From: Clostridia bacterium
GTDB lineage: Bacteria > Bacillota > Clostridia > UBA1212 > UBA1255
Direction of reading: 5' to 3'
Assembly (NCBI GenBank): GCA_017560765.1
Contig: JAFZEI010000084.1
Coordinates: 1 to 40,675, forward strand
Length of the DNA: 40,675 nt
Shown here in pieces: positions 17,556 through 21,817 of the stretch. Both the position numbers and the translations under genes were made by a program. Position 1 is the stretch's first letter, and each line of letters begins with the position of its first letter. The notes below the pieces were generated by a model. That model did no database searches. It was not told the origin of the DNA and was given only the letters and a program-made list of their open reading frames with translations.

Positions 17556-19346
17556 TTATTGTATAGGCTCAAAATCTGCAGCGCCATGCTTGCACAAAGG
17601 ACATATAAAGTCTTCCGGCAATGTGTCTCCCTCATAAACGTAACCGCAAATCTTGCACACATAGCCTTTTTTGCCATCAGTTTTCGGCTTAGGCTTTACA
17701 TTATTCTGATAATACGTGTATGTCATTGTTTCTCTGTTAGAAAGTACTCTTGCCTCCGTAACACTGCAAATAAACATACCGTGAGTATCAAGGTCAACAT
17801 ACTGCTCTACCTTTAACGACATAAAAGAATTTATATACCTGGGCAGGAATACCAAGCCATTATCTGAGCGAAGCGTCTGACAATTTGCAAACTTGTCAAC
17901 ATTTCGGCCGCTTACAAAACCAAATGTTTCAAATACCTTAAAAGGTGCATCAACAGTAAGGCAATTAATGTTCATAATACCTGTCTGCTTAATAATATGA
18001 TGAGAGTAATTCTCCTTATTTATCGCTACTGCTATTCTGTTAGGTGTATTTGTAACTTGTGTAACTGTATTTACAATAAGACCGTTATCTTTTTTGCCAT
18101 CATTTGATGTTACAACATACAATCCGTAACCTATATTAAAAAGTGCAGTAAGGTCATTTTTATTTGCCGTATCATCTTTTGAAGCTATATATTCTCTGCA
18201 AAGCTCTTCTGCAAGAGCTCCCAACTGTGTCGCACTCTCTTCATTTAACGCAGACAATATTTTCACTGTATTTTCTGCATACGTAATGTTTTTACTGTTT
18301 GCAAGCATTTCTTTCATCACTTTTGCTGCCAAAGGCGACCAGCTTCCGTTTTCAATTAACGCAACTGTACGATTTTGGAAATTGCGCTGAGTCAAATGGT
18401 CTATAAACTCCCTCATAAACGGGAAAATATCTGCATTATACGTTGTTGTTGCAAGAACAAGTTTATTGTAACGAAATGCATCGGAAACAGCAGATGACAT
18501 ATCGCATCTTGCTAAATCGTAAACAACAACTTTCGGGCAACCGTTACCTTTAAGTTTTTCCTCAAGCTGTATAACTGCTTTCTTTGTGTTACCGTAAATA
18601 GACGTATAGGCAATTACAATACCTTCTTCTTCGGGCTGATAGCTTGACCATGTATTATAAAGATTAATATAGTAAGCAAGGTTTTCCTTAAGAACAGGTC
18701 CGTGAAGAGGACAAATGAAATCAATTTCAAGTCCTGACGCCTTTTTAAGAAGAGTCTGTACTTGTGCTCCATACTTACCAACTATGCCTATATAATAACG
18801 TCTCGCTTCGTCTGCCCATGGCTCATCAATATCAAGAGCGCCGAACTTTCCGAAGCCGTCAGCAGAGAACAACACTTTATCCTTGCTGTCATAAGTCACA
18901 ATTACCTCAGGCCAATGCACCATAGGTGCTGTTACAAAAGTAAGAGTATGTTCTCCCAAATTCAAAGTGTCACCCTCGCCCACAACTATTCTTCTATCCT
19001 CGAAATCTGTCCCGAAGAAGTTTTTCATCATAGAAAAGGCTTTAGCAGATGAAACAATTTTTGCATCAGGATATGCCTTTATAAAGCTTACAATATTTGC
19101 AGAGTGATCCGGTTCCATGTGTTGTACAACGAGATAATCAGGTACTCTGTTACCAAGAGTATTTTGAATATTATCCAGCCACTCATGTGTAAAGTTAACA
19201 TCAACCGTATCCATTATTGCTATTTTTTCATCAATAACAGCATAAGAATTATACGATATACCTCCGGGCACTTTGTACTGTCCTTCAAATAAATCAATCT
19301 TATGGTCATTAACTCCTACATATTTTATATCTTTTGTTATTGTCAT
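17556..19346 (-). CDS. Four-domain flavodiiron protein (MBL-flavodoxin-flavin reductase-rubredoxin)
   Basis: A 596-residue cytoplasmic O2 or NO reductase. Domain 1 (about 1-240) is the MBL-like diiron domain with H76, E78, D80, H81 (HMEPDHS), H144, D163 and H215 all present. Domain 2 (about 243-390) is a flavodoxin with an FMN loop in AYTSIYGNTKKA. Domain 3 (about 395-545) resembles flavin reductases of the HrbAB type. Domain 4 is rubredoxin (C564, C567, C582, C585). The fusion could carry electrons from NAD(P)H to the diiron site in one chain. The start follows GTGAGG. A palindromic operator and TATAAT lie upstream, next to the Crp/Fnr gene. Confidence 0.9.
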   Translation of the reverse strand: MTITKDIKYVGVNDHKIDLFEGQYKVPGGISYNSYAVIDEKIAIMDTVDVNFTHEWLDNIQNTLGNRVPDYLVVQHMEPDHSANIVSFIKAYPDAKIVSSAKAFSMMKNFFGTDFEDRRIVVGEGDTLNLGEHTLTFVTAPMVHWPEVIVTYDSKDKVLFSADGFGKFGALDIDEPWADEARRYYIGIVGKYGAQVQTLLKKASGLEIDFICPLHGPVLKENLAYYINLYNTWSSYQPEEEGIVIAYTSIYGNTKKAVIQLEEKLKGNGCPKVVVYDLARCDMSSAVSDAFRYNKLVLATTTYNADIFPFMREFIDHLTQRNFQNRTVALIENGSWSPLAAKVMKEMLANSKNITYAENTVKILSALNEESATQLGALAEELCREYIASKDDTANKNDLTALFNIGYGLYVVTSNDGKKDNGLIVNTVTQVTNTPNRIAVAINKENYSHHIIKQTGIMNINCLTVDAPFKVFETFGFVSGRNVDKFANCQTLRSDNGLVFLPRYINSFMSLKVEQYVDLDTHGMFICSVTEARVLSNRETMTYTYYQNNVKPKPKTDGKKGYVCKICGYVYEGDTLPEDFICPLCKHGAADFEPIQ

Positions 19347-19385
19347 TTATATACGCCTCACTTCTAAAATCATATTTACATTGTT

Positions 19386-19391
19386 ATTATA
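19386..19391 (-). promoter_or_regulatory. -10 box of the flavodiiron gene
   Basis: A perfect minus-strand TATAAT inside a 15-bp palindrome (TTGTTAT-T-ATAACAA, 19381-19395). The -35 position has no good match, which fits an activator-dependent promoter. The predicted transcript start is near 19379. Confidence 0.65.
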
Positions 19392-19413
19392 ACAAAATAT
19401 TCCAAAAAATATA

Positions 19414-19429
19414 TGTTGATTTTTCAACA
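19414..19429 (-). promoter_or_regulatory. Crp/Fnr-type operator upstream of the flavodiiron gene
   Basis: TGTTGATTTTTCAACA, a perfect 6-4-6 palindrome. It ends 22 bp before the TATAAT, so its centre lies about 42 bp upstream of the predicted start, the class II activator position. It sits 4 bp past the stop of the regulator gene. A second copy is at 20116-20131. Confidence 0.7.
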
Positions 19430-19433
19430 AACT

Positions 19434-20102
19434 CTATATTTTATTTAAAAGCTTAAAAATTTTCTTATTGCTCTCCAATACACCTTCTTGTCTTAGCTTG
19501 CTTATTTCTGCAGACAAACCGCTCCTTTCTACTCCCAGGTAATCAGCAAGCTCCTGTCTGTCATACGGAATGCTAAAGCTGTTGCTTCCTGTTTGTTTTG
19601 AATAATACATCAAAAAAGTCAATAACTTCTCCCTTGTGGAGCGCTTTGATGTTATCTCTATTTTTTGATGAAAGAGGATTGTCTTTTCTGCAAGGTTTCT
19701 CATTAGATTATATATCATGCTTTGATGAAAAACGCAACAATTAGAGCAAGTATATAAAATCCTGTTACTGTCTATAAACATCACCTCGCAAGGCTCAACA
19801 GCAGTCACCGTAACGGGAAGCTCTTTTACCCCGGCGCAAGCAAAGGCCTCAGAAAACATTTGCGCTTTTTCTACCATACCGATTATATTCCTGTTACCGT
19901 AGTAATCAACTTGCGAAACACGAGCTTTACCGGATAACATTATACCTATATATTTTGCAGGTAATCCATCAGCCAATATTGTGTATTCTTTGTCAAAAGT
20001 TATTACTTCTGCTTTTAAGCAAACAAGCATGTTCTCTATGTCTGCCGGCGATATTCCTTTAAAAAGAGAACAATTTTGCAATGTAGTAATATATTTTTTC
20101 AT
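19434..20102 (-). CDS. Crp/Fnr family transcriptional regulator (HcpR-like)
   Basis: A 222-residue regulator: an N-terminal cyclic-nucleotide-binding-like beta-barrel (about 15-120), a dimer helix, and a C-terminal winged helix with DRQELADYLGVERSGLSAEI as the recognition region. No FNR-type N-terminal cysteine cluster is seen; a CSNCC stretch lies in the middle. The recognition helix differs from CRP and FNR and recalls clostridial HcpR-type regulators of nitrosative-stress genes; this subgroup call is tentative. I chose the ATG at 20102 (GGAG seven bases upstream) over one at 20132. Its own leader contains the palindrome it probably binds. Confidence 0.85.
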   Translation of the reverse strand: MKKYITTLQNCSLFKGISPADIENMLVCLKAEVITFDKEYTILADGLPAKYIGIMLSGKARVSQVDYYGNRNIIGMVEKAQMFSEAFACAGVKELPVTVTAVEPCEVMFIDSNRILYTCSNCCVFHQSMIYNLMRNLAEKTILFHQKIEITSKRSTREKLLTFLMYYSKQTGSNSFSIPYDRQELADYLGVERSGLSAEISKLRQEGVLESNKKIFKLLNKI

Positions 20103-20115
20103 ATTTTTCTCCGTT

Positions 20116-20131
20116 TGTTGAAAATCCAACA
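20116..20131. promoter_or_regulatory. Crp/Fnr-type operator between regulator and ferredoxin gene
   Basis: TGTTGAAAATCCAACA, matching the copy at 19414-19429 in both arms except one base. It ends exactly 22 bp before the plus-strand TATAAT at 20154, the same spacing as the other copy. For the divergent regulator gene it falls just downstream of the predicted start, where a bound protein would block transcription. Confidence 0.7.
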
Positions 20132-20146
20132 TAATTATTTTTTATG

Positions 20147-20175
20147 ATTATACTATAATTCATTTACAGTAACAA
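20147..20175 (-). promoter_or_regulatory. Promoter of the Crp/Fnr regulator gene
   Basis: Minus-strand TTGTTA (20175-20170), a 17-bp spacer and TATAAT (20152-20147), predicting a start near 20140. It overlaps the divergent ferredoxin promoter, so the two promoters may compete. Confidence 0.55.
20154..20159 (+). promoter_or_regulatory. -10 box of the ferredoxin gene
   Basis: A perfect TATAAT with no recognisable -35 hexamer at the proper distance. Activation from the operator at 20116-20131 is the simplest explanation. The predicted start is near 20166. Confidence 0.6.
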
Positions 20176-20215: not shown

Positions 20216-20812
20216 ATGTTAAGAAAGATAATAAAAATTGACGAAAGTAAGTGTAATGGTTGCGGTGCTTGTGCCAAAGCGTGCCATGAAGGTGCAATAG
20301 AAATGATAGATGGTGTTGCTAAACTTACAAGGGAAGATTATTGCGACGGTCTCGGTGACTGTTTACCTGCTTGCCCAACAAACGCAATTTCTTTTGAAGA
20401 AAGAGAAGTACCTTGCGTTAATCCGAGAACATTTGAAAATTCTGCCGCTGCAAGCCGCCTTGCTCAATGGCCTTGTCAAATAAAGCTTGTTCCTGTAAAC
20501 GCGCCGTATTTCGAAGGTGCAAATCTGCTTGTTGCTGCTGATTGTTCTGCTTTTGCATACGGAAATTTCCATAACGATTTTATGCGCAATCATATAACTT
20601 TAATCGGTTGCCCAAAATTGGATGGCGTTGACTATACCGAAAAGCTAACATACATTATTAAGAACAACAATATTAAGAGCGTTAAAATTGTCCGTATGGA
20701 GGTCCCCTGCTGCGGAGGTTTGGAAAATGCAGTAAAAAACGCACTTTTGTCCGGCGGCAAGTTCATTCCGTGGCAAGTTATAACAATTTCAACAGACGGC
20801 AGAATTATTTAA
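20216..20812 (+). CDS. 4Fe-4S ferredoxin-type protein (FrdX-like, hcp-associated type)
   Basis: A 198-residue protein with an N-terminal ferredoxin domain. Cluster one has C13, C16, C19 and C23. The second motif has C43, C49 and C53 followed by Pro, lacking the usual middle cysteine. The C-terminal part (about 70-198) holds further cysteines in ADCSAFAYGNFH, IGCPKLDG and VPCCGGLENA and may bind another cluster or partner. Proteins of this build are often encoded beside hybrid-cluster protein genes and Crp/Fnr regulators; here the hcp gene itself is absent. AAGGAGG precedes the ATG. It is transcribed divergently from the regulator and carries the shared operator. Confidence 0.85.
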   Translation: MLRKIIKIDESKCNGCGACAKACHEGAIEMIDGVAKLTREDYCDGLGDCLPACPTNAISFEEREVPCVNPRTFENSAAASRLAQWPCQIKLVPVNAPYFEGANLLVAADCSAFAYGNFHNDFMRNHITLIGCPKLDGVDYTEKLTYIIKNNNIKSVKIVRMEVPCCGGLENAVKNALLSGGKFIPWQVITISTDGRII

Positions 20813-20818
20813 CTGATA

Positions 20819-21817
20819 CTATTGTATCTCGTTGACACACTTGCCCGTATTAAAAAATTCCGTAATATTATTTATTGTAGTTTCTGCAATGTTTTCAAGA
20901 GCTTCTTCTGTCAGAAATGCCTGATGAGAAGTCACTATAACATTAGGCATGGAAATAAGTCTTGCAAGAATGTCATCATCTAAGATATGCCCGGAATTAT
21001 CCTCAAAAAACAAATCTGATTCCTCTTCATATACGTCCAGACAGGCCGCCCCTACCTGTCTGGATTTTATTCCCTCTAATAATGCGTCTGAATCAAGCAA
21101 AGCTCCTCGCGAGGTATTGATTATAATTACACCTTTTTTGCACTTGCCTATTGCAGTCTTATCTATTAGGTGATATGTGTCTTCTGTCAAAGGACAGTGG
21201 AGAGAAATTATATCGCTTTCTGTGAAAACATCTTCAAGCTCAACATATTTAAAGAAATTATTGCTTTCAAGTTTTTTATCAGGATACTTATCGTATGCAA
21301 GTATATTCATCCCAAAGCCGCTACATATATCTGCAAAAACGCGTCCTATCTTGCCTGTACCTACAATCCCCACAGTTTTTCCATGTAAATCAAAGCCTGT
21401 AAGTCCCACGAGGCTAAAATTAAAATCCTTTGACCGTATATAAGCTTTATGAATTCGTCTTACTGATGTTAAAAGCAAAGCCATTGCATGTTCCGCTACT
21501 GCATACGGTGAATAAGCAGGAACTCTTAATACGTGTATTCTCCCCTGTGCGTATTTTATATCTACATTATTAAAACCTGCACATCTGAGAGCCAAAACTT
21601 TTATTCCCCTTTTGTACATGCAGTCTATAACTTTTTTATTTACGGTGTCATTTACGAATGTGCAAACTACGTCAAAACCCGTTGCCAGGTCTACCGTATC
21701 TTCATTTAGTTTTGTCTCGAAAAACTTAAAGTGTATATTAATGTCTTTACCGAATTTCTCAAAGGAAAGTTTGTCATACTGCTTTGTATCAAAAAAAGCA
21801 ACTTTTATAATATCCAT
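20819..21817 (-). CDS. ldhA: D-lactate dehydrogenase (D-2-hydroxyacid dehydrogenase family)
   Basis: A 332-residue NAD-dependent enzyme that reduces pyruvate to D-lactate, regenerating NAD in fermentation. The Rossmann motif is VGIVGTGKIG (149-158). The catalytic residues are R237 (NTSRGAL), E264 (DVYEEE) and H298 (TSHQAF). HILDDDILARL and the segment after VYEEESDLFFED are typical of the LdhA branch rather than phosphoglycerate dehydrogenase. The length is normal. The ATG follows AGGTG. It converges on the ferredoxin gene with a gap of only 6 nt, so there is no room for a separate terminator. The substrate is inferred from family resemblance. Confidence 0.9.
   Translation of the reverse strand: MDIIKVAFFDTKQYDKLSFEKFGKDINIHFKFFETKLNEDTVDLATGFDVVCTFVNDTVNKKVIDCMYKRGIKVLALRCAGFNNVDIKYAQGRIHVLRVPAYSPYAVAEHAMALLLTSVRRIHKAYIRSKDFNFSLVGLTGFDLHGKTVGIVGTGKIGRVFADICSGFGMNILAYDKYPDKKLESNNFFKYVELEDVFTESDIISLHCPLTEDTYHLIDKTAIGKCKKGVIIINTSRGALLDSDALLEGIKSRQVGAACLDVYEEESDLFFEDNSGHILDDDILARLISMPNVIVTSHQAFLTEEALENIAETTINNITEFFNTGKCVNEIQ

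Follow-up and report, generated by a model that had tools for sequence, protein, structure and literature searches.

A conserved operator–promoter module predicted to place ferredoxin and flavodiiron genes under an HcpR-like regulator in a Clostridia bacterium

The window analysed here, a stretch of 40,675 nucleotides from a Clostridia bacterium (assembly GCA_017560765.1, contig JAFZEI010000084.1), contains a gene for a Crp/Fnr-type regulator (19434–20102, minus strand) that lies between a flavodiiron protein gene (17556–19346, minus strand) and a divergent ferredoxin-like gene (20216–20812, plus strand). The 222-aa regulator has an effector-binding barrel and a Crp helix-turn-helix, with Pfam cNMP_binding and HTH_Crp_2 both over cut-off and ERSGLSAEISKL as its recognition helix, and it is the only protein in the assembly above both family cut-offs. 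The flavodiiron protein (596 aa; Pfam ODP, Flavodoxin, Flavin_Reduct and RUBY_RBDX) comprises metallo-beta-lactamase, flavodoxin, flavin-reductase-like and short rubredoxin-like domains, and several relatives encode its core and its flavin-reductase part at different loci. The ferredoxin-like protein (FrdX-like, 198 aa, Fer4 domains) is 74–81% identical to its counterparts encoded divergently to the regulator in relatives; it is missing ~33 residues, LPCGCPGT among them, that are found in all six aligned relatives, with its reading frame intact. It is adjoined by a 2-hydroxyacid dehydrogenase gene (20819–21817) that has no operator, a homologue of which is found in two related loci (L046 and L047) between operator and ferredoxin, in the same direction.

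Two 16-bp palindromes flank the regulator gene. Operator 1, TGTTGATTTTTCAACA (19414–19429), which was identified in the sequence and in genome pattern scans, has perfect arms, while operator 2, TGTTGAAAATCCAACA (20116–20131), has one arm mismatch and a counterpart in 51 related loci. As the initial annotation had stated, each lies 22 bp from a perfect TATAAT, which for operator 1 is the flavodiiron −10 (19386–19391, minus strand) and for operator 2 the ferredoxin −10 (20154–20159, plus strand). The flavodiiron element is an extended −10, TGTTATAAT (TG at 19393–19394; start site predicted), a feature that annotation had missed. Its statement that neither promoter has a good −35 box is borne out by the hexamers found at 17 bp (ATATAT for flavodiiron, ATAATT for ferredoxin), neither of which is −35-like. 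With the −10 set as −12 to −7, the operators are centred at about −42.5 in the window and −41.5 in most relatives, i.e. the geometry of a class II promoter, in which a dimer site near −41.5 is found without a consensus −35. Operator 2 thus falls in the 5′ leader of the regulator gene and, with respect to ferredoxin, near promoter position −42. It had been placed just downstream of the regulator start, which is incorrect: the likely start is the ATG at 20102 rather than 20132, because GGAG upstream of it would serve as ribosome-binding site and alignments with relatives begin at residue 1, and this puts operator 2 some 14 bp ahead of the start codon, outside the gene.

This arrangement was compared among 70 regulators, that of the window and 69 relatives that are ~30–63% identical to it. 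A symmetric GTTG-N6-CAAC palindrome occurs within 130 bp upstream of 42 of the 70, whereas shuffled sequence would be expected to give 0.015. The regulator start codon is preceded at 10–22 bp by a palindrome in 51 loci, and in these a ferredoxin-side −10 is found on the other strand 21–22 bp from the operator (43/51), a regulator −10 at 14–15 bp (45/51) and a TTGACT-like regulator −35 with a 17-bp spacer (42/51); since each count takes the best match within a range, the evidence resides in the clustering on a single spacing. For ferredoxin, that spacing is 21 bp (39/51 loci), and the 22 bp that had been highlighted, although present at both window sites, is therefore a local variant. Neither the window nor the 51-locus consensus shows a usable ferredoxin −35. 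Judged by this comparison, the layout is a real and well-conserved regulatory module, and the proposal that the palindromes are Crp/Fnr-type operators of the adjacent regulator, at class II activator distance, finds clear backing. Seven relatives of the same operator type have one operator–promoter unit each, in the regulator–ferredoxin gap, with one extra match, in G006. At L156 (G006:C67:77913), a further perfect palindrome of the operator type, TGTTGATTGTTCAACA, directly precedes GGAGG and the start codon of another gene, a possible additional target.

The regulator and ferredoxin promoters also appear to share their core. A symmetric block, ATTATACTATAAT (20147–20159), contains both the ferredoxin −10 on the plus strand and the regulator −10 on the minus strand (20147–20152); the latter is preceded at 17 bp by TTGTTA (20170–20175, minus strand), so that the regulator promoter in the window reads TTGTTA-17-TATAAT. 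These divergent, overlapping −10 elements are predicted to form a symmetric bidirectional promoter, the general form of which across loci is ATTATAnTATAAT. In 44 of the 51 loci the block has one and the same register, and in another 4 it is shifted outward by one base (48/51 at either register). An arrangement by which a single site could switch the target on and the regulator down, as first suggested for this window, is thus kept in many relatives, as far as a comparison of loci can tell. Similar symmetric promoters with divergent overlapping −10 boxes and an activator near −41 for one direction are known in E. coli, where a CRP site at −40.5 activates transcription in one direction and blocks it in the other (PMC12825309). 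Whereas that CRP case is semi-synthetic, the type seen in the window is natural and conserved in many families of Clostridia.

How unusual the operator–promoter unit is was assessed in the 2.19-Mb assembly, which is rated 95.75% complete. The bare motif with up to two mismatches is found five times in the window (3.45 expected in shuffles) and 243 times in the whole genome; counting it was abandoned as evidence since it is hardly above shuffles, and was replaced by a search for motif plus spacing. TGTTGN6CAACA-N20–24-TANNNT has five matches in the 2.19 Mb, and only the two window sites have TATAAT; the other three correspond to operator 2 in reverse reading, to a site inside an 815-aa ORF and to the junction of convergent ORFs. 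When a fixed 44-base pattern was used with up to three mismatches, the two window sites headed the ranking with zero and one mismatch. This is consistent with the suggested regulon of two promoters in this assembly. The idea that hcp might be a further target is not supported, as no hcp was found in the assembly.

The regulator belongs to the same protein family as Porphyromonas gingivalis HcpR (profile E 4e-20), which is an NO-responsive activator (PDB 9DAY, PMC12750200). A close parallel is the HcpR2 regulon of Clostridia and other bacteria (Rodionov 2005, PMC1274295), in which a Crp/Fnr regulator is found beside a frdX-like ferredoxin gene and hcp, the palindromic operator is of similar size and changes in the recognition helix track operator bases. 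The window differs in its operator, TGTTGA-N4-TCAACA rather than GTAAC-N4-GTTAC, in having Ser instead of Pro at CRP position 181, and in a genome with no hcp found and a flavodiiron gene as predicted target. On these sequence characters the protein can be filed as HcpR-like within the wider HcpR group and excluded from the common GTAAC-N4-GTTAC HcpR2 subtype, because its operator differs and Ser-181 members with different motifs are on record since the 2005 paper. The hcpR–frdX–hcp cluster of Clostridioides difficile is likewise similar by its published description, with a regulator, a ferredoxin-like gene, an NO-defence enzyme and a shared upstream operator (PMC12915319). There, however, the enzyme is Hcp; its counterpart in the window is a flavodiiron protein, whose gene has a separate operator.

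In relatives, hcp is the usual partner: among 26 genomes with both hcp and a regulator match, 17 have a divergent hcp no more than 4 kb from the regulator, frequently downstream of the same ferredoxin. Seven further genomes of the window's operator type were searched, three of them 75–85% complete, and none yielded hcp; nor did several relatives with other operator types. The missing hcp is for these reasons to be read as an association with this operator type only. A flavodiiron sequence directly follows the ferredoxin in 8 of 12 same-type relatives. In the window, the flavodiiron gene is instead on the opposite side of the regulator from the ferredoxin and has a separate operator. No operator is found upstream of the 86%-identical flavodiiron orthologues in two genomes of the same genus, G001 and G002, although the core promoter in G002, TTTGGAAAAATTTGTTATAATA, resembles that of the window; compared with these orthologues, the predicted control via a separate operator is seen in the window alone. 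The simplest reading would be that operator 1 was gained here, so that a flavodiiron gene transcribed on its own came under the regulator's control, the alternative being that it was lost in both G001 and G002. In G001 (C39, L037), the regulator is of the T type and only 40% identical to that of the window, set against 86% identity for the flavodiiron protein, a contrast suggesting that the regulator–ferredoxin pair may be horizontally exchanged. A literature search for flavodiiron proteins and HcpR returned Desulfovibrio work only, and no earlier report of the pairing in Clostridia was found within the literature covered.

Operator base 6 and its mirror base 11 can be A, G, T or C, depending on the relative, and they covary with the regulator. 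In the first set of loci, Arg at residue 198 (CRP 185) goes with C6 in 15/15 cases, and Asn at the same residue with T6 in 8/8 symmetric sites. A6 accompanies Gly at 195 (CRP 182) in 13/13 when the window is scored by its perfect site 1, the two arms of operator 2 reading A and G. Of the 222 columns of the protein, the most informative on base 6 are 195, 200 and 198, all three of them recognition-helix positions. This peak offers the strongest control against shared ancestry, since all columns have one common tree. When frozen and applied to 58 further loci, many of which share families with the first set and which are thus out of sample rather than phylogenetically independent, the rule was right in 28 of 29 scorable cases. 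Phylogeny-corrected (sister) pairs were too few for significance, which is why the code relies on the position of the signal within the protein and on this out-of-sample prediction.

Taken together, these observations make it quite probable that an HcpR-type regulator binds both palindromes, activates ferredoxin and flavodiiron genes and damps its own. Sequence comparison supports the identity and position of the sites, their conservation, the covariation of regulator and operator, a regulon of two promoters and a genome with no hcp found, and from these we infer binding, activation, autorepression and NO as signal. A regulator dimer would bind operators 1 and 2. At operator 2, in class II position (about −42), it would activate ferredoxin, while the same dimer would cover about +9 to +24 of the regulator's own transcript and RNA polymerase drawn to the ferredoxin side would compete at the common symmetric −10, turning the regulator gene down. 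At operator 1, from the same relative position, it would activate the flavodiiron gene. The expected result is a flavodiiron enzyme that reduces NO or O2, together with its ferredoxin, in place of the Hcp under HcpR control in relatives. Class II activation and lowering of the regulator's own gene would both follow from site position and established Crp/Fnr behaviour.

The same positions could be read the other way round, with a repressor that covers the −35 region of both target promoters, which the operators do overlap, until released by the signal, all the more so as the extended flavodiiron −10 could function without an activator. This is improbable, because the ferredoxin promoter has no usable −35 to be covered, either in the window or in the 51-locus consensus, the distance of 21–22 bp is kept as for activation, and the relatives in C. 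difficile (PMC12915319) and P. gingivalis (PMC12750200) are activators. It is less probable still that operator 1 is a weak terminator hairpin of the regulator gene that merely looks like an operator. It does start 4 bp past the regulator stop codon, with a T-rich stretch behind it, yet its stem has two G–C pairs, its fold is unremarkable (z −1.56) and a terminator scan finds none, for which reasons this reading of site 1 was set aside as weak; moreover, the match to operator 2 and the equal TATAAT spacing are unique to these two sites in the genome.

As for the signal that such an activator would respond to, NO is likely by orthology. In C. difficile, NO induces frdX and hcp ~200-fold provided that hcpR is intact (PMC12915319). 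The heme ligand known from P. gingivalis HcpR is Met68 (PDB 9DAY, PMC12750200). It aligns with Q64 of the window regulator, so the ligand is not conserved and NO sensing by the Met68 heme route is unsupported here. No FNR-like N-terminal cysteine cluster is apparent, but alignment shows that C28, C119, C123 and H126 are conserved across the family. In L028, a relative of the G type, C28, C123 and H126 are all missing, a joint loss that may point to a single metal or cluster site. These conserved residues, together with the missing heme ligand, would suit a system that works as described but senses O2 or redox state, and the substrate of the flavodiiron enzyme could be O2 instead of NO; flavodiiron proteins reduce either, and the multidomain one of C. 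difficile is an NADH:oxygen oxidoreductase (PMC6033852). Sequence features make O2 a serious alternative, but on balance we regard an O2 or redox signal as less likely than NO, given that the orthologous C. difficile cluster is NO-responsive and affords no protection from oxidative stress (PMC12915319) and that Hcp is the usual partner in relatives.

A broader and more tentative picture, which we put forward with some doubt, is that of an HcpR lineage that swapped Hcp for a flavodiiron enzyme, senses through its conserved Cys/His set in lieu of the heme ligand, follows a simple operator code (CRP-185 Arg for C6 and Asn for T6, Gly at 182 for A6) and uses a conserved natural bidirectional promoter that is switched on in one direction and off in the opposite one. 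The activator module would extend the HcpR system to genomes where searches found no hcp and another enzyme takes its place, and the residue-to-base rule would predict operators in new genomes. It would also represent a widespread natural example of an activator acting on a symmetric bidirectional promoter, for which the earlier tests were made with semi-synthetic CRP constructs.
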